Shown here in pieces: positions 23,299 to 30,670 of a stretch of 64,000 bases of DNA. The notes beneath the pieces were generated by a model. The model was not told the DNA's origin and made no database searches. It saw only the letters and a list, made by a program, of their open reading frames with translations. How positions within the stretch are numbered: the first letter of the stretch is position 1; every line of letters begins with the position of its first letter. This DNA comes from Paraburkholderia sp. SOS3 (GTDB taxonomy: Bacteria > Pseudomonadota > Gammaproteobacteria > Burkholderiales > Burkholderiaceae): the NCBI RefSeq assembly GCF_001922345.1, contig NZ_CP018811.1:124001-188000 (forward strand), given 5' to 3'. The position numbers and the translations under genes are program-made.

Positions 23299-23949
23299 TC
23301 AGGCCTGCTGCGCGAAGATCTTCCAGGTTTTCTTTTGCGTCGCGAGATCCGCGGTTTCGTGGACCGAGCAATCGAGCCGCAGATCGGTATCCGACATCGT
23401 GATGTCGAGCAGCGCGCAGCGATGCAGCGACTTCTTCGGATTCTTGCTCGGCTCGAAATGCGTGCAAGTGACACACATGCGGTGCACGGGAATCTGGCCT
23501 TGCACTTCGAGTTGCCGAACCGTCTTCAGCAACGTGCGATAGAACATGGCCTGTTCATCGTCGCGCAATGTGCCGACTGCCTTCGACAGGAAGTCCGGCC
23601 ACTGCGCCGCACGCTTGGCCGCCGTGCGCCCACGCGCCGTCAAACGGACCGCGAGAGCGCGACCGTCGTCGAGCGCCCGTCGCTTTTCGACGAGACCCTT
23701 GCCTTCCAGCGTGCTCACCGCATCGCTCGTCGTCGCGGCGGTCAACGCCGTTTCGCGTGCGATTTCGCCGAGACGCATCGGGCCCTTGCGCTGCATCAGC
23801 AGCACGAGAATTTCACCCTGGGTGGGCGTCAGGCCTGCGCCCTCCGCCCATTCCCATGCCTGGCTACGCATTGCCGTGCTGAGTCGTAACAGACTGTGGG
23901 TCACCCGCCCGGTAGCCTGCTCTCCGTAAACGCCTTCGCTCATAGTCAT
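23299..23949 (-). CDS. MarR-family regulator with C-terminal four-cysteine extension
   Basis: 216-aa transcriptional regulator. Winged-helix core at residues 30-110 (LTPTQGEILVLLMQRKGPMR, ETALTAATTSDAVSTLEGKG, wing VEKRRALDDGRALAVRLT). Past the usual MarR length comes a segment with four Cys: C159 and C162 (CVTC), C178 and C194, with even 15-residue spacings, in a tail that contains HF, HRC and VHE. That pattern suggests a metal or Fe-S site or a thiol switch. The upstream region (23950-24654) is long and regulatory in appearance. Confidence 0.87.
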   Translation of the reverse strand: MTMSEGVYGEQATGRVTHSLLRLSTAMRSQAWEWAEGAGLTPTQGEILVLLMQRKGPMRLGEIARETALTAATTSDAVSTLEGKGLVEKRRALDDGRALAVRLTARGRTAAKRAAQWPDFLSKAVGTLRDDEQAMFYRTLLKTVRQLEVQGQIPVHRMCVTCTHFEPSKNPKKSLHRCALLDITMSDTDLRLDCSVHETADLATQKKTWKIFAQQA

Positions 23950-24122: not shown

Positions 24123-24323
24123 GTCCGCAGCGACCATTGCACCCGTTTGATCGAAAAAATCCGCCGACAGACCCACCGCGAGACCTGCCGATAGACCTAC
24201 CGATAACCGACACCGGATCCTTCGAATCAACCTCAACCGGGAGCAGCGGGACCATTCGCTGCGGCGAAGTCGTCATTCTATGCGAGAGCGGCGAATCGTA
24301 CAGCTAAGTTGTCCAACGCAATC

Positions 24324-24332
24324 TGTGGATAA
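24324..24332 (-). promoter_or_regulatory. Perfect DnaA box
   Basis: TGTGGATAA, the exact complement of the consensus TTATCCACA, in a long intergenic region. One of two perfect boxes in the window, the other being at 27858-27866. Confidence 0.7.
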
Positions 24333-24490
24333 CCACGGGAAAGACCGTTGACTGCCTGTGCGTGAATTCTTGATAACGCGCAACCGCGTCAAAGTCGGAT
24401 CCAGGCTGTCAGCCGTTGCAAGCGTTGATCCAGCGGCGCTGCGCATGGTTATGATTTTCGCAGTGCTTTGACTTTTCAGGAGATTATTCT

Positions 24491-24547
24491 GTTGTCCACA
24501 GACAAGTGCAATGCTTGTTAACTACTACTACGTTTGTATATGTAAAC
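24491..24547 (-). repeat. Origin-like element, copy A (DnaA box plus trinucleotide run)
   Basis: Read on the plus strand: DnaA-like box TTGTCCACA (24492-24500), a 20-nt spacer, ACTACTACTAC (24521-24531) and an AT-rich tract TTTGTATATGTAAAC. This order (box, spacer, 3'-GAT-type trinucleotides, AT-rich DNA) is that described for the basal unwinding system of bacterial oriC. The complement matches copy B at 27628-27686 through GTTTAC, ACGTAGTAGNAGTTAACAAG and TGTGGACAAC at nearly equal spacing. Confidence 0.65.
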
Positions 24548-24590
24548 ATTGGAAAGAACATGGGAGCCCGAAGCCGGGGCCTTTTAAACG

Positions 24591-24613
24591 AAAAAACCCG
24601 CTAAAAGCGGGTT
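24591..24613 (-). terminator. Intrinsic terminator of the ligase/antiporter operon
   Basis: Minus-strand 8-bp stem AACCCGCT / AGCGGGTT with a 3-nt loop, with six T at its 3' end, 42 nt past the stop at 24655. Confidence 0.88.
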
Positions 24614-24654
24614 CATCAAGATGACAGAATTTGACGGAGCTTTTATCCGCTTGC

Positions 24655-25770
24655 CTATGCGCGCCATTGCAGGCATTGCTGACGCACTGCTTCGTGCAGC
24701 GATTTTTCGTCGTGGTAAACCGTGCGCAGCCACGTTGCATCGTTGATCTGACCGCGCGCGATCGAGCCGACCTCGTCGAGCGCCTTCGTCGAACTCAATG
24801 CTTCGGCGTGCGGCGCGATTTGCTCGAGCGTTTGAATGATGTCTTCGGAGATCGTGCGGCGTTCTCCCGTTTGCGGGTCGATACAGGTGCCCGCAAGGCC
24901 GAAACGGCATGCTTCGAAACGGTTAAACGTATAGACGAGGTAGTCGTCCTCTTTTGGCGTAAGGGGTTTGTCCAGAAGCAGATGCCGCGCGAGCGTCTGG
25001 ATATAGCAGGCGATGGCGGCCGCGCGATCGACCGACAGCGGCGTGTCCATCACGCGAACTTCGATCGTGCCGAAACCTGGCTTTGGGCGAATGTCCCAGT
25101 AGAAATCTTTCATGCTGTTGACGACACCGGTATGGACCATCTTCGAAAAGTATTCTTCGAAGCTGTCCCACGTCAGCACGAACGGCGCGCGGCCCGATAG
25201 CGGAAACGCGAAGACCGAATTCAGACGTGCCGAATGAAATCCGGTGTCGACGCCCTGCACGAACGGTGACGAAGCCGACAGCGCAATGAAATGCGGAATG
25301 AATCGGGACATCGAATGAAGCAGGAATAGCGCGCTATCCGAATCGGGGCAGCCGATATGGACATGCTGTCCAAACACCGTGAACTGCTTGGCAAGGTAAC
25401 CGTAGAGTTCCGATAAATACTGAAAGCGCGGCGTATCGACGATCTGCCGCTCGCTCCATTGCTGGAACGCATGCGTGCCGCCGCCGCACAGGCCGACGTT
25501 GAGCCGGTCAGCCGCGGCCACGAGCGTATCGCGGATGGTGCGCAGATCGGCCACCGCCTGTTCGTGAGACGTGCAGATGCCGGTCGACAGCTCGATCATG
25601 CTTTCGGTGATTTCCGGCGTGATATTGCCTGGAATCTTTTCGTCCTTGATCAGGCGCAGCAGATCGGACGCGGCTTTGGTCAGATCATAGTCATGCGTGT
25701 TCACAATCTGCATTTCGAGTTCGATACCGAAGGTGAACGGTTTCGAATCGACGAAGGGTTCGAGTGACAT
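24655..25770 (-). CDS. YbdK-family carboxylate-amine ligase (GCS2-type glutamate-cysteine ligase-like)
   Basis: 371-aa enzyme of the GCS2 family, which forms gamma-glutamyl or similar amide bonds with ATP. It starts [20 protein letters not shown], the metal/ATP-binding GIELE motif; further family blocks are [26 protein letters not shown] near residue 92, [15 protein letters not shown] near residue 133 and [13 protein letters not shown] near residue 225. Weak glutamate-cysteine ligase activity is known for YbdK; the true substrate is not. It lies 8 bp after the antiporter gene, hence an operon. A classical gshA is present at 50261-51874, so this enzyme is not needed for ordinary glutathione synthesis. 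Confidence 0.9.
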
Positions 25771-25778
25771 GGCGTCCT

Positions 25779-26996
25779 TTACGAGGTTCGAGCGTTATCG
25801 CGTCGTTCGCCGACCAGCGCAAGGCTGCGGTAAACGAGCCACGGACCCACGAGCTGCAGCACGACGATCGAGCACATGATGACCGCGCGCAGCATCGGAT
25901 CGAAATTCGGGTACATCGTGTAGGTGTCGTCGACGAGCAGATAGGCAAGCGCCGACATCGGCGACAGCGACAGACCGAGCGCCGCGCCCTGCTTCCAGTT
26001 CAACCCGCTCGGCTTCGCGAAAACGAGCACGCCCACCAGTTTGCCGACGAGGCGCGCGACGATCAGCCCGCACGCCGCGACACCACCGAGCGCGATATCG
26101 CGCCACTCGAAGGTGGTCAGTGTCAGCACGAACAGAATGACGGTGAGCAACCAGCCGGCCGTGCCGAAATGCTGCGGCCACAACTGCGGCCGCGCTTCGA
26201 GATTCTTGACGATGATGCCGGCCGCGAGCAAAGCCAGAATGGTCGATAGCTTGAAGACATGCGCAATCGCGATGGCGAGGAGCACGAGCCCGAACAACGC
26301 GACGAACGAATGCTCGTCCTGCATGTTGACGCGGCGATAGAAGAACGTGCAGGTGCGCGCGAGCAGATACGCGAGGATCAGCGAACCGACGAGCAGATAA
26401 AGCGGCTGGAGAATCGTCGCGAACACGTTGCCGTAAATTTCCTGATGCAGCCAGCCGGACGCGAGCTTTTCGATTACGACCGCATACATGCTGTTCAACG
26501 CCGTCAGCGTCATCAGACGCTGCGTGACCTGCCCTTCGGCGCGCAACTCGGTTTTGAGCTGGATCACCATCGCGGGCGACGTCGCCATCGCAATCGATGC
26601 GAGCACCATCGCAGTCATGACCGGCACGTGCACGAACAGCAGGACGGTCAGCACGAGCACGAAGGTCAGCGTCGCTTCCGCGATGCTCGAGAGGATCAGC
26701 CACGGATTGCGGCGGATCCAGCGCAAGTCGAGCCGGCTGCCGAGCTCGAACAGCAGCAGGCCGAGCGCCACGTCGAGCAATGGCCGTGCTGCGCTCGCAG
26801 ACTCCGCATCGATCACGCCCGACCCCGCGGCACCCGCGATCAATCCGATTACCGCATAACCGGAAATGCGCGGCAAATGCCAGGCGCGATAGCAGAGCTC
26901 GCCGCACAGGCCCGCAGCCAGCAGCGCGAGCCCCGCCCAAAAAATGGCATCGGGCGTGAGAGGCCAGGCGGGAAAAAATGAAAACGCCGACTTCAT
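25779..26996 (-). CDS. CPA2-family monovalent cation/proton antiporter (KefB/YbaL-like)
   Basis: Inner-membrane protein of 405 aa with about 11-12 hydrophobic segments. ATG 26996 ([20 protein letters not shown]) follows AAGGAG; the upstream frame is not credible. CPA2 landmarks: [14 protein letters not shown] near residue 43, [20 protein letters not shown] near residue 75, [15 protein letters not shown] near residue 125. There is no C-terminal RCK/TrkA_N nucleotide domain, unlike KefB/KefC. Co-transcribed with the ligase gene; KefB/C are gated by glutathione adducts, so a link to a glutathione-like product of the ligase is an attractive guess only. Confidence 0.87.
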
Positions 26997-27627
26997 CGTG
27001 ATGGGTTCTCCTTGTGAGACAACCGCAGCAGGCCGGAAAAGCCGGAATGGACGGAATCTGCCCAAAGGGAGCGGCTGACGAGCAAACCCCTGAGCAAATC
27101 CCGGACTCGGAGAAGCGGCTCGTCGCAACGGGCGCTCGCGCCGACCTGTGTTGCGCTTGTCAACGATCGGGTGAAAAACGGGACGAACATGCCGATGCCA
27201 CGTCACTGCGCGCACATCGTCACGGGTGATAGAACGCCGTCGACTTTCGAATCAGATTCTGATGAACCGGCAACCGTTCCTTGGGTGCGCTGCGCCACCA
27301 TGAGCGGCACTCGGCGCGTGAAGAACGGCGATTGTGCCATAGCTTTCTTCTACCAGCTGGCAAAAGCGCCGAACTCACCGTCAAAGAGGTAAAACGTACG
27401 ACATCTGGATAACAAAGGGAAAAAGAGACCTTTGTCGGCAGGCACCGGGGGCGGTTCTTCCGTCCGCAGATTGAGTCTGCAAGCGCTTTGAAATGTGCTT
27501 TGACCTGCATTCCAGCCTGCATTCGGGAAGGCCTGCGGGTTTCCGTTTGGCCTGCTTCTGGACGGAAAGTTTGCGATGTCCTGCATGGAGTCGGCCGACC
27601 ACACCGGTGCGGGTCTTCTACTCAAAG

Positions 27628-27686
27628 GTTTACCTGTATGTATACGTAGTAGAAGTTAACAAGGGCATGCCGCTTTTGTGGACAAC
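27628..27686 (+). repeat. Origin-like element, copy B (inverted relative to copy A)
   Basis: Plus strand: GTTTAC, AT-rich CTGTATGTATAC, GTAGTAGAAG (27646-27655), TTAACAAG, a 17-nt spacer and TGTGGACAA (27677-27685, complement of TTGTCCACA). It matches the complement of copy A over its whole length with a two-base length difference. The two copies are 3.1 kb apart in opposite orientation, with their AT-rich ends facing each other across the ligase/antiporter pair. Confidence 0.65.
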
Positions 27687-27857
27687 ACCGGTTTACCGAA
27701 AGAAATCATGGTTTTGACGCGCGCATAACCGGACGCATAGCGTGTGCGTGCAGCGGTTGCTTCTGCTGGTAACTTTTGGGTCTTAAACGACTGGGCTCGA
27801 CTTACCCCGTTTACGTCCACATCGATTCCACACGCGTTTCGCGTCGAATTCGACCGG

Positions 27858-27866
27858 TTATCCACA
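27858..27866 (+). promoter_or_regulatory. Perfect DnaA box
   Basis: TTATCCACA, 43 bp beyond the mnmC stop codon, within CCGG(TTATCCACA)GACGCG and followed by a GATAACCGG block that repeats part of it in inverted form. Confidence 0.7.
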
Positions 27867-27908
27867 GACGCGCGGGGATAACCGGTCGGCGGTGCGGTGC
27901 GATTGTGT

Positions 27909-29912
27909 TCAGTCGAATTCGTCGTGCCGCAATGCGCGCAGCAGGAAACGGGCGGGGTCGATTGCTTCGGCGAGCTCGCGCTCGAGCGGCCATGGTTCGC
28001 CTTCGAGCTGCGAGGCGATCAGTTCGGCGCCGAGCGTGGCCCAGACGAGACCGCGCGAGCCGTAGGCGAATGCGCCGAAAAGTCCGTCCGAGCGCGGCAG
28101 ATCGCGCGGCCACGCGCCGCGCAGCTTCGCGGCATCGGCTATCGCTGCGGCTTCGTCGGCGAGCATGCCGATCATTGGCAGCCGGTCGCTCGTAACGCAG
28201 CGAAATGCGACGCGGCCTGTCAGCAAGTGCGACGCTTCGCATCGGTCGGTTTCATTCGATGAGAACGGGCCAGCAAGCGACGGCAGCATTCGCGCGACGC
28301 GCTCGATATTTTCGAGGTGCGCTTCGACACGCACTGCGGTGTCGGTATCGTCGATGTCGTAGGTGGCGCCCGCGAGTGTCGTACCGTCGGCCAGCGGCAC
28401 TGCGTAGCCCTCGCCGATCACAGGAAGGCGCAGGCCTTCGAGCGTGCCGATCGGGTCGATCGTGCGATCCGGCAGCAAGGTCAACTGCCCGCGCACGCTG
28501 CGTGTCGGCGCATGACTCAAGCTCGCGACGCGCGCCGCTTCATGAGCATTCGCAACGATGACGACCGGCGCGCACGCGAGTACCCGGCCCTCGGCATCGA
28601 ACACGGCCCACTGGTCGCCGGCACGTTCGACGCGGGCGGCTTCGACACCGTAACGCCGCACGAGAAGATCGCCGGCGCTTGCACATTGCGCTGCGCACAG
28701 TTGCGAAGGATCGATCCATCCGCCGCGGGGAAAAAAGCAGCCGCCTCGCGTGACCGGTAAGCCCGCGATGCTTGCGGCTTCATCGCGTGATACGGCGGTC
28801 ACGAACTCGGCCGGATACGCAAGCGATGCCAATACCTGTGCGAACGACTGCGCTTCCTCTTCGGATTCGGCGATCTGCAGCAGGCCGTCCGCACGATGCG
28901 TGATAGGCAAGTTGAGATCTGCAAGCGTCGACCAGCGTCGCAACGCGTATAGAAAACCTGCACGCGTGATGCGCGAGGCGACGCTGTCGTCGCGCGCGAG
29001 CATCGGGTGAAAAACGCCAGCCGGATTGCCCGATGCTTCGCGCGCCGGCGCGCGATGTCGTTCGAGCGACGTGATGCGCCAGCCGCGCGCTGCAAGCCGT
29101 TCTGTTATTGCGCAACCGGCCAGCCCGGCGCCGATCACGATCGCGTGCCGCTCGCTTACCGGAAGCGGCAGCGGCGGTTCATAGCGCCGCACGCGCCAGC
29201 GCGGCGCGAAGCGGCCGACTAGCATTGCGCGCTTGCCCGCAAAACCGCCGACCTTCGTGCATTCGAAGCCGGCTTGCGCGAGCCCGCGTTTGACGTCGCC
29301 GGCGCTCGAGTAGGTGGCGACCGTTGCGTCGTCGGCGGCGAGCCGCGTGAGCGATCTGAAAACCTGCGGGCTCCACAGGTCGGGATTTTTCGATGGCGCG
29401 AAGCCGTCGAGATAAATCGCGTCGGCGCGCATCGATAGCGACGGCAGCGTGTCGAGCGCATCGCCGAATACGAGCGTGAGCGTCACGCGCCCTGCTTCGA
29501 ATTCGAGACGGTGCATGCCGGGCACGAGCATCGGCCATGCCTCGGCGAGCAAGCGCGACAAATGCGAGATCGATGCATCCGCAACGATCGTTGCATGTGC
29601 GGTGCGCAAGTCGGCCGCCGAAAACGGATGCTTTTCGACCGATACGAAGTGAAGTCGCTCGCAGCGCGCCGGGTCGGCGCGCCACTGTGCCCACGTGGTC
29701 AGGAAATTGACGCCGAGGCCGAAGCCGGTCTCAAGAATGCTGAATATCCGGCGTTCGCGCCACCGCTCGGGCAGCGCGTTGCCGTTCAGAAACACATGCC
29801 CGGCTTGCGCAAAAGCGCCGGCGGCGCTGTGGTAGATGTCGTCGTGGCGTGGCGAATACGGCGTGCCGTCCGCGCGAAAAACGAGCGTAGCGGGTGTGAG
29901 CGTCGTGGCCAT
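27909..29912 (-). CDS. mnmC: Bifunctional tRNA mnm5s2U biosynthesis protein MnmC
   Basis: 667-aa cytosolic enzyme finishing mnm5(s2)U at the wobble position of tRNAs for Lys, Glu, Gln, Leu and Arg. The N-terminal third is the SAM methyltransferase (ILETGFGLGVNFLTTWAQW near residue 58; DAIYLDGFAPSKNPDLW near residue 165). The C-terminal part is the FAD oxidase (IVIGAGLAGCAITERLAARG near residue 256; FHPMLARDDS; RGQLTLLP). Length fits the fused form. Acts downstream of MnmE-MnmG; mnmE is at 59029. Starts MATTLTPATLVFRADGTPYS, the usual entry sequence. Confidence 0.95.
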   Translation of the reverse strand: MATTLTPATLVFRADGTPYSPRHDDIYHSAAGAFAQAGHVFLNGNALPERWRERRIFSILETGFGLGVNFLTTWAQWRADPARCERLHFVSVEKHPFSAADLRTAHATIVADASISHLSRLLAEAWPMLVPGMHRLEFEAGRVTLTLVFGDALDTLPSLSMRADAIYLDGFAPSKNPDLWSPQVFRSLTRLAADDATVATYSSAGDVKRGLAQAGFECTKVGGFAGKRAMLVGRFAPRWRVRRYEPPLPLPVSERHAIVIGAGLAGCAITERLAARGWRITSLERHRAPAREASGNPAGVFHPMLARDDSVASRITRAGFLYALRRWSTLADLNLPITHRADGLLQIAESEEEAQSFAQVLASLAYPAEFVTAVSRDEAASIAGLPVTRGGCFFPRGGWIDPSQLCAAQCASAGDLLVRRYGVEAARVERAGDQWAVFDAEGRVLACAPVVIVANAHEAARVASLSHAPTRSVRGQLTLLPDRTIDPIGTLEGLRLPVIGEGYAVPLADGTTLAGATYDIDDTDTAVRVEAHLENIERVARMLPSLAGPFSSNETDRCEASHLLTGRVAFRCVTSDRLPMIGMLADEAAAIADAAKLRGAWPRDLPRSDGLFGAFAYGSRGLVWATLGAELIASQLEGEPWPLERELAEAIDPARFLLRALRHDEFD

Positions 29913-30391
29913 GCGAGGTGAAAGACGGTCTGGCGGTTCGGAGGCAATGCTGCGTCGACCCGACTGGAACCGCTTGCGGCGGGCGCTTTGCGCGTGCTCG
30001 ACGAGCGTTTCGATGACGCTCGAAGTGCCGTTGCACGCGCAAAGCCGCTCCCGTGCGCGCGCAAAACGTTGGCAAAAACCAACGCTGAAACGCCCCGAAA
30101 CCCCGTCCGGGACGCGAATCCGACGCTAAAGGAGCGCAAATTGCCGATTTCCATGCTGGATCAGGCGCAGCGCGATGTAATTCTTCGAAACCCTTGTCCA
30201 GATTGGGTTTGCGCTGAGCTATCATAGCAAGCGCCGCGAGGGAAGCGGCAGCACGGCGTTCGATGCAGTGCGGCAGCGCGCTGCTTAGGTCGGGGAATTC
30301 CCAAGTCGTCGCTGCTCGACGGCGCGGCGCGCGCACGTATAATCGGCGCGTTCGCGCTGTTCGTGTCAACCTAAACCAGAAAGGAACCTTA
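29913..30391. other. Divergent mnmC-hupB intergenic region
   Basis: Carries both promoters. The hupB promoter is proposed at 30315-30343. A small inverted repeat CGTTGG/CCAACG with an A-rich loop sits at 30067-30084. Open frames here show no family resemblance. Confidence 0.55.
30315..30343 (+). promoter_or_regulatory. Predicted sigma-70 promoter of hupB
   Basis: A perfect -10 TATAAT at 30338-30343; the best -35 at 17-bp spacing is the weak CTCGAC at 30315-30320. The start codon is about 50 nt downstream, leaving a short leader with AAAGGAA. Confidence 0.6.
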
Positions 30392-30670
30392 ATGAACAAA
30401 CAGGAACTGATCGACGCCGTCGCAGGGCAGACGGGCGCCAGCAAGGCTCAAACCGGCGAAACGCTGGACACGCTCCTCGAAGTAATCAAGAAGGCAGTGT
30501 CGAAGGGTGACTCAGTTCAGTTGATCGGCTTTGGCAGCTTCGGTTCGGGCAAGCGCGCAGCACGTACGGGCCGCAACCCGAAGACCGGCGAAACCATCAA
30601 GATTCCGGCCGCCAAGACGGTCAAGTTCACGGCCGGTAAGGCATTCAAGGACGCAGTCAACAAGCGTTGA
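30392..30670 (+). CDS. hupB: HU-family nucleoid DNA-binding protein
   Basis: 92-aa histone-like protein that bends and compacts DNA, working as a dimer. [20 protein letters not shown] opens the family; the beta arm carries the diagnostic [20 protein letters not shown] with the intercalating Pro in NPKTG. The ATG follows AAAGGAACCTTA; an open frame extending to 30263 was rejected. Flanked by its own promoter and terminator, so a single-gene unit. Confidence 0.96.

Follow-up and report, generated by a model that had tools for sequence, protein, structure and literature searches.

The window (the whole stretch of 64,000 nucleotides that was analysed) contains two gaps separated by a pair of (-)-strand genes, a ybdK carboxylate-amine ligase gene (24655..25770; NF010040.1, 631.9 bits) and a sodium/proton exchanger gene (25779..26996; PF00999) with its first ATG at 26996 in an ORF that opens at 27215. 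Gap A is bordered by a MarR-like regulator gene (23299..23949, (-)) that scored below every NCBIfam cut-off, and gap B by mnmC (27909..29912, (-); NF002480.1). A gene for an HU-type DNA-binding protein was found at 30263..30670 (+) (PF00216). By synteny, the HU gene adjoins this locus even in genera in which neither ybdK nor mnmC turned up at this position.

Each gap held one unit with the same order of features: an AT-rich tract, DnaA-trios, an R1-like DnaA box, an IHF-like stretch and an inverted R4-like box. Unit A (24324..24565, (-)) was matched by the R1 profile at 24483-24562 (-) with 64.8 bits. Its AT-rich tract (24534..24562) has a GTWWAC site at 24542, and another lies at 24517, inside the core. 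The core itself (24514..24533, (-); 0 mismatches) consists of GTTAACAAG and three 3'-GAT-5' DnaA-trios. The R1-like box TGTGGACAA, with one mismatch, is at 24492..24500 (-), reading TTGTCCACA on the (+) strand. It is followed at R1+27 by a weak IHF-like stretch, AGTCAAAGCACTG (24461..24473, (-)), and at R1+168 by the perfect R4-like box TTATCCACA (24324..24332, (-)).

Unit B (27605..27881, (+)) was matched by the same profile at 27619-27696 (+) with 62 bits. GTWWAC sites are found at 27628 and 27640 in its AT-rich tract (27628..27645), and more at 27655, 27691 and 27809. The core (27644..27663, (+)) has the trios GAT, GAT and GAA together with GTTAACAAG, and the R1-like box TGTGGACAA (27677..27685, (+); TTGTCCACA on the (-) strand) lies 13 nt past it. 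An IHF-like site, AATCATGGTTTTG, is present at R1+27 (27704..27716, (+)), a perfect R4-like box, inverted to R1, at R1+181 (27858..27866, (+)), and a degenerate third box, CGGGGATAA, with two mismatches, at R1+196 (27873..27881, (+)). Scored against the IHF consensus WATCAANNNNTTR, the stretch at R1+27 had one mismatch in B and two in A.

The two units are inverted, and their unwinding (trio) ends face one another across ybdK and the antiporter gene. The shared core lies in inverted arms of 27 nt that are 85% complementary, and the R1-to-trio distance is 21 nt. An earlier note on this DNA had correctly located both perfect boxes and the inverted copies with their common core and flanks. It gave the element as 57-59 bp long, but each unit reaches the outer perfect box and thus spans about 240 bp. 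Its spacer of 17-20 nt also needs correction, the gap from TTGTCCACA to ACTACTACTAC or ACTTCTACTAC being 20 nt in both copies.

Across the 7.5-Mb genome the core was fully matched at exactly two places; one further match, with 3 mismatches, had no DnaA box at the expected place. The pattern of core, N15 and box matched twice in the window and never in 100 shuffles. A profile built from relatives together with A and B found only these two units genome-wide (E values 2.6e-17 and 1.8e-16). On these counts and E values a chance repeat was rejected.

A search for the elements in relatives, which the earlier note had suggested, found them conserved. In 30/30 relatives' sites recovered by the core alone, the box was exactly 13 nt away. 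An inverted R4 partner box was present in the range scanned at 71 of 73 B sites, with 68 of these matches at R1+180/181. Of the 30 unique A sites, 29 had one downstream, in most cases between R1+168 and R1+172. Reversed-motif controls gave 0-4 sites. A direct third box was found in the scanned range at 50/73 B sites (47 of the 50 matches at R1+195/196). Many relatives also carry extra units, here called satellites, roughly 35-300 kb away. IHF-like sequence at R1+27, with at most one mismatch to the consensus used above, was found at 50/73 B sites, 8/30 A sites and 5/66 satellites. Both gaps could be read at 38 loci of relatives, of which 20 had both units, 17 only B and one only A. Because just one side is intact in 18 of these loci, neither unit requires the other as its second half there.

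The interval 24,324-27,866 is likely the oriC of the main chromosome. Over the 288 kb analysed, with the remainder of the chromosome sampled, cumulative GC skew was lowest at window position 24,238, 276 bp from unit A, and keto skew at 27,430, about 200 bp from unit B. The sampled chromosome arms had skew of opposite sign. This check, proposed in the earlier note, bears out its placement of oriC here and not at dnaA. The dnaA gene, 36.7 kb from the locus, is at neither minimum, and the curves there stand 783 (GC skew) and 1024 (keto skew) counts above them. Four perfect DnaA boxes occur in the 288 kb. Two are the outer boxes of units A and B, and the others are at window coordinates -20808 and 64402, the latter 158 bp before the dnaA ORF. 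An origin at dnaA was rejected, because the skew curves are above their minima there and only one perfect box precedes the gene. A parS pair was found 26-28 kb from unit A, on the side away from dnaA; this pair and the HU gene next to the locus speak for an origin here.

Six other genomes had an intact unit at this locus 0.2-10.7 kb from the GC-skew minimum of the stretch examined. The larger GC-skew offsets, 10.7 kb in G110 and 6.0 kb in G134, count against the locus, as do keto-skew offsets of about 9 kb in G135, G089 and G041 and of 44 kb in G134. In G110 the keto-skew minimum of the stretch was 144 kb off the locus and 2.8 kb from a satellite, which itself lay 3.2 kb from a local GC-skew minimum; this too counts against. 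The 18-kb stretches around units in G547 and G023 were without a clear local skew minimum and were uninformative. Also against the locus is a Cupriavidus genome paper, the available part of which puts the origin of chromosome 1 in the region of dnaA (PMC6379261).

In architecture the units resemble the E. coli oriC, with the same order and orientation (DUE, R1, IHF-like stretch, R4) and an R1-R4 distance of 180 bp there against 181 in unit B. The E. coli stretch GATCAACAACC, presumably its IHF site, lies at R1+27, the same offset as in the units. It has two mismatches to the consensus, as in A, and the strict IHF pattern gave no site in the E. coli oriC. The R1 profile did not match the E. coli oriC at E<=10, so the likeness is one of architecture and not of sequence. 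Unlike in E. coli, there are two inverted units, trios and GTTAACAAG replace the 13-mers, and the neighbours are HU, mnmC and MarR genes instead of mnmG-mioC.

The box-spacer-trio reading of the earlier note fits the known basal unwinding system (BUS). As described in the available part of PMC8287927, this system has a box, a spacer and three 3'-NAN-5' trios (mostly GAT) adjoining AT-rich DNA. Both copies here contain a DnaA box with at least three DnaA-trios. The units differ in their 21-nt distance, in an invariant GTTAAC and in having at least two copies per chromosome in many genomes. The published search rule puts the trios no more than 16 bp away from the box (PMC8287927, same part), a limit that 21 nt exceeds unless TTGTTAACT (4 mismatches) counts as a weak second box.

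The bipartite origins of H. pylori and B. subtilis likewise have two DnaA-box regions flanking coding DNA, though in the available part of PMC8235120 dnaA lies between them and only one region has a DUE. Here ybdK and the antiporter gene lie between two trio/AT-rich ends. The parallel with Helicobacter drawn in the earlier note is thus loose: whereas a single DUE acts for two box clusters in Helicobacter, each side here is a complete unit with its own DUE-like end and is not a required half of the other. Double origins have been predicted for Ralstonia pickettii 12D and Acidaminococcus, and P. aeruginosa has two autonomously replicating sequences of which only one is essential (available part of PMC4403523). 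These also have two oriC-like sites per chromosome, but the predictions came from box clusters and skew in single genomes, whereas we found a homologous unit of fixed register across genera. Dispersed DnaA boxes are likewise reported for the origin regions of B. cenocepacia c1, where the precise origin was left 'uncertain' (PMC4948915), and C. metallidurans CHR1, with a GC-skew switch about 90 kb from dnaA and box clusters about 130 kb apart (PMC4948915, PMC2864759). The parts of these two papers available describe no trio unit or twin arrangement.

As read from the sequence, the oriC locus is two complete E. coli-type units and not, as the earlier note had it, one origin split by two genes. 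We consider it very probable that it is the main-chromosome origin, with B the principal and A a second, losable unit. DnaA on the R1-like box would extend across the 13-nt spacer and GTTAACAAG, itself possibly a weak second DnaA box, onto the trios of one strand, and there melt the AT-rich tract next to them. Between R1 and the inverted R4-like box, IHF-type bending would help the complex to fold. Unit B would be the principal origin at the locus. Unit A, inverted to it, would be a second unit for initiation or DnaA assembly, one that genomes can lose here; in many genomes other units lie elsewhere. The anatomy of the units, their conservation and the skew minima were observed; binding of DnaA and IHF, melting, which unit fires and any interaction between A and B are what we infer from them.

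It is a serious possibility, if short of an even chance, that B alone initiates, and that A and the satellites, having kept the form of an oriC, handle DnaA in the manner of datA/DARS, by titration, ADP/ATP exchange or hydrolysis. B is the unit most often kept, the satellites keep boxes and trios and rarely the IHF-like site, and none of four satellites in three genomes (48-261 kb from B) was at the GC-skew minimum of its stretch. However, A and the satellites have kept the trios, which datA and DARS are not known to need, and the G110 satellite lies near skew minima, as expected of an origin. Moreover, genus g10 has a single unit in 26/31 genomes, including all six one-contig genomes, and in the contexts read it stands at the A position.

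One bipartite origin of the kind suggested for H. pylori and B. subtilis, in which DnaA bridges A and B as halves and the 3-kb gene pair is looped out, is possible but doubtful. Among the 150 listed of 186 matches (58 genomes), close pairs were inverted with trio ends facing in 30/30 cases, 3.08-3.33 kb apart, and same-strand pairs at that distance were absent, which favours such an origin. The loci with just one intact unit, and the g10 genomes with a single unit in all, argue against it. That A is a relic of origin duplication and turnover, without present function, is quite improbable. It was not found or was degenerate in 17/38 relatives' loci, which also weighs against the two-unit reading. 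Where present, however, it is conserved in the R4 region too, which was not used in finding A sites: in 28 sequences the mean majority fraction was 0.73-0.79 from +190 to +270 and 0.05-0.42 over the 180 bases that follow. The units sit in gene gaps and promoters can be under the control of DnaA boxes, but the elements can hardly be DnaA-regulated promoters of neighbour genes instead of origin parts, as three satellites have different neighbouring genes (ethanolamine lyase, sigma factor, GntR-type regulator), A and B lie at skew minima and the oriC register is kept.

The window's genus and a Burkholderia-like genus had at least two units in every genome scanned. By genus, 58/58 g1 genomes had 2-4 units, 51/51 in g11 at least two, 38/40 in g3 two and 14/14 in g23 three. 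A restriction of second units to multi-replicon genomes is a lead that fits g10, g1, g11, g3 and g23, with replicon numbers judged from contig counts and few informative contrasts. Family f7 counts against it, with two matches close together in 11/30 genomes, including the one-contig G155, G586 and G587. It is conceivable, though unlikely, that in multi-replicon Burkholderiaceae the main chromosome cannot do without two or more complete oriC units, B being joined either by the inverted A or by a satellite far off. This additional unit would then work as a second origin, for which the G110 satellite beside its own skew minimum may be cited, or as a checkpoint that, like crtS in Vibrio, couples replication of the secondary chromosome to that of the main one. 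The literature covered gives no natural bacterial chromosome with a demonstrated need for a second oriC unit.

The units offer sequence-level candidates for the primary-chromosome origin in a large family whose members include soil bacteria, symbionts and opportunists. For at least one studied species of this family the precise origin is called 'uncertain' in the available part of PMC4948915. With one to four oriC-like units in related genomes, they form a natural, countable system in which to study if a single bacterial chromosome can be served by several origin units, and their inverted geometry bears on the loading of two helicases for two forks. The origin reading is also favoured by weaker related units in other members of the order, which lie at the dnaA-dnaN junction (L268, L276, L279, L281 and L283).

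On sequence evidence, the locus holding the inverted oriC-like units A (24324..24565, reverse strand) and B (27605..27881, forward strand), which flank the ybdK and antiporter genes, is the predicted chromosome origin. The genome comprises 7,502,907 bases in three contigs, the window being C1:124001-188000. Within C1:1-288000, the cumulative GC-skew minimum was at window position 24,238, and all positions at most 60 counts above it fell within C1:144,062-151,887, a span that includes both cores (trios and GTTAAC-type element); dnaA lay 783 counts above the minimum. The keto-skew curve reached its minimum at 27,430, with the B core some 200 bp away. Thus, the proposal in the earlier note of an origin here, away from dnaA, was upheld. 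Chromosome skew was read from C1:1-288000 and eight sampled 20-kb stretches, with GC skew positive in all five at 0.5-2.0 Mb and negative in all three at 2.5-3.5 Mb.

In six relatives (100-400 kb examined per genome), the GC-skew minimum lay near the orthologous locus, at 202 bp (G041), 0.56 kb (G080), 2.6 kb (G135), 2.9 kb (G089), 6.0 kb (G134) and 10.7 kb (G110) from its nearest intact unit. Their keto-skew minima agreed less well: that of G080 coincided with the locus, those of G135, G089 and G041 missed it by about 9 kb and that of G134 by 44 kb, and the G110 minimum was 144 kb from B and 2.8 kb from a satellite (an oriC-like unit away from A and B). A parS-like pair at -3278 and -1728, left of the window start, was 26-28 kb left of A, on the opposite side from dnaA. 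In five of the six relatives parS was 22-31 kb from the locus, and in G134 it was not found near the locus. An origin away from dnaA is countered by C. necator NH9, where an excerpt of the genome report places the annotated origin around dnaA (PMC6379261). A lone perfect DnaA box at 64402, 158 bp before dnaA, is probably an autoregulatory site of that gene.

The sequence details of the earlier note, four DnaA boxes and a core in two inverted copies, were recovered, and these copies were the only two full core matches in the whole genome. From the gene pair outward, each side had an AT-rich tract, trios (reading GTAGTAGNAG on the strand of the core), the element GTTAACAAG, 13 nt, an R1-like box (TGTGGACAA), about 160-170 bp and an inverted perfect box, the three sequences being common to both units. 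The perfect box had been listed as a separate item; from its order and offset (R1+168 in A, R1+181 in B, counted from the R1-like box), it is instead the far end of its own unit. In E. coli oriC, R1 and R4 are 180 bp apart compared with 181 in B, a register common to both. E. coli also has GATCAACAACCTG at R1+27, the same offset as the IHF-like site of the units. This stretch has two mismatches to the IHF consensus, equal to A's stretch, and a strict IHF pattern run on E. coli oriC reported no site, so the IHF comparison is positional. A profile built from the relatives' sites and the window's two sites found no match in E. coli, despite the E. coli register in the units.

The core (at most two mismatches) was present in 84 of 150 family genomes, counting the window's own, and a reversed-core control in five. 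A DnaA box with no more than one mismatch stood exactly 13 nt past the core in all 30 relatives' loci from the core search, which required no box. Core and box at fixed distance occurred in at least 120 stretches across named genomes; the 80 stretches listed were all from records named Burkholderia (also Candidatus), Paraburkholderia, Caballeronia, Robbsia, Mycetohabitans or Trinickia, a lower bound that does not argue against occurrence in other genera. From 197 collected sites, 173 were kept after removing duplicates and sites whose upstream sequence was shorter than 40 bases (31 from the A gap and 74 from the B gap, the intergenic regions holding the units, and 68 elsewhere); since most were picked by pattern, conservation of core and R1 among them is partly built in. 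The R4-like box, its register and the IHF-like site lay outside the search pattern. An inverted R4-like box was found in 29 of 30 A sites with enough sequence, 71 of 73 B sites and 43 of 66 elsewhere (reversed-motif controls, 0-4 sites). It fell at +180/181 in 68 B hits, at +168 to +172 in 29 A hits and at +168/169 in 30 of 45 elsewhere. The IHF-like site (at most one mismatch) was at R1+27 in 50/73 B, 8/30 A and 5/66 other sites.

GTWWAC had few copies in the window, 16 over 64 kb, but four of them lay inside 70 bp at B. Sites were at 27628, 27640, 27655, 27691 and 27809 in B and at 24517 and 24542 in A. B units averaged 3.9 per 130 bp. The core GTTAAC belongs to the search pattern; positions -18/-17, +45 and +162/163 do not, and gave 60, 44 and 65 hits in the 74 B units. 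In B. cenocepacia, both GTWWAC and CACAG are targeted by methyltransferases and have been observed at origins (PMC7364216). The GTWWAC sites concentrate in the units, most of all in B, and methylation control of the origin is possible.

A and B read as two units rather than two halves. The idea of a single origin split by two genes was not supported: of the 38 loci from relatives in which both gaps could be read (39 when the window is counted), most of them retrieved for having at least one unit, 20 had both and 18 only one. The latter comprised B with A absent (13) or degenerate (4) and A only (1); three B-only loci repeat a genome (L061/L129, L069/L121 and L072/L195, the last with identical gaps), and the profile detected a decayed A in L072. 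In the window's genus (58 genomes), the matches listed (150 of 186) included 30 close pairs 3.08-3.33 kb apart, all with trio ends inward, and no same-strand pair at that distance. In Robbsia the B gap contained two units on one strand, and two nearby units, mostly same-strand, were found in 11 of 30 genomes from family f7; doubling therefore recurs in other geometry. Loci L260, L264, L278 and L282, which belong to a further family of the order, had two or three neighbouring oriC-like units; in several of these loci the partner boxes were spaced about 158 bp. Box spacings of 158, 168 and 180 are close to whole helical turns.

DnaA at R1 would extend toward the trios and open the AT-rich tract, with IHF and R4 closing the complex, and B would be the main site. 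A may be a DnaA-handling site or, almost as likely, may cooperate with B, neither reading being more likely than not; a relic is improbable. An autonomous second origin at A falls within the remaining probability. According to Hi-C work on B. cepacia and C. necator, the origin of the secondary chromosome is in contact with much of Chr1 (PMC13342612). Such contacts make a checkpoint tying secondary-chromosome replication to the main one worth testing, and are not evidence for it. Among the papers listed by searches of the open literature (titles, abstract starts and term counts), none dealt with DnaA-trios or twin units in Burkholderiaceae; Burkholderia and Ralstonia go unnamed in the main text of PMC8287927 but could be in its tables. 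Excerpts of other reports hold prior hints: DnaA-box clusters about 130 kb apart in C. metallidurans (PMC2864759), a c1 origin left uncertain (PMC4948915) and a double origin predicted in R. pickettii (PMC4403523).

Unit number varied among genera. Genus g11 was judged to be Burkholderia from named records with identical satellite sequence; g3 may be Cupriavidus, g10 Pandoraea, g12 Polynucleobacter, g23 Ralstonia and g1, the window's genus, Paraburkholderia. Exactly two units were found in 45 of 51 g11 genomes and three or four in the remainder. Both shared a contig in 36, inverted in 35 (34 at 41-67 kb, one a close A-B pair); the lone same-strand pair was 35 kb apart. Two units were found in 38/40 g3 genomes, inverted in all 24 with a shared contig and spaced 135-220 kb in 23; the last spacing, 3.9 Mb, may be measured the wrong way round the contig. 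All 14 g23 genomes had three units. In g10, 26 of 31 genomes had one unit, in the A position where contexts were read, and a second match was merely weak in three of the other five. Weak second profile matches (E about 0.009) in G127 C2 and G554 C1 of g10, lying 22-23 kb from the one strong unit of the genome, are possibly a decayed second unit.

Satellites (L058, L075, L063, L056, L060, L073) had gene neighbourhoods recurring within genera and were 48-261 kb from B where B shared the examined stretch. The GC-skew minimum was at none of four satellites in that range (one each in G135 and G110, two in G089). In G110 (L060; C2 2,683,140-2,686,315), the satellite, 147 kb from B, had a local GC-skew minimum 3.2 kb away and the keto-skew minimum 2.8 kb away; it may be a second origin that is active, or the picture may stem from an earlier rearrangement.

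In g3 and g23, one unit was flanked by the SET-domain and HU genes that also occur in the window, and nothing matching ybdK, antiporter or mnmC was found between these two genes. The origin locus may therefore be older than the ybdK/antiporter pair. The HU-type gene (30263-30670) was conserved beside the locus, also in genera without a ybdK, antiporter or mnmC match before the SET-domain gene. At a cut-off of E<=0.1, the profile also found weaker relatives beyond these genera, with matches in 84 of the 299 genomes of the order, many of them close to that limit. In L276, L279, L281 and L283 the match was at the dnaA-dnaN junction, the classical place of oriC, with the R1 box in the gap and the opposite end running about 12-21 bases into the dnaN alignment; the L268 match was wholly inside the dnaN alignment, adjoining dnaA. 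These matches are the strongest independent indication of the element being an origin module.
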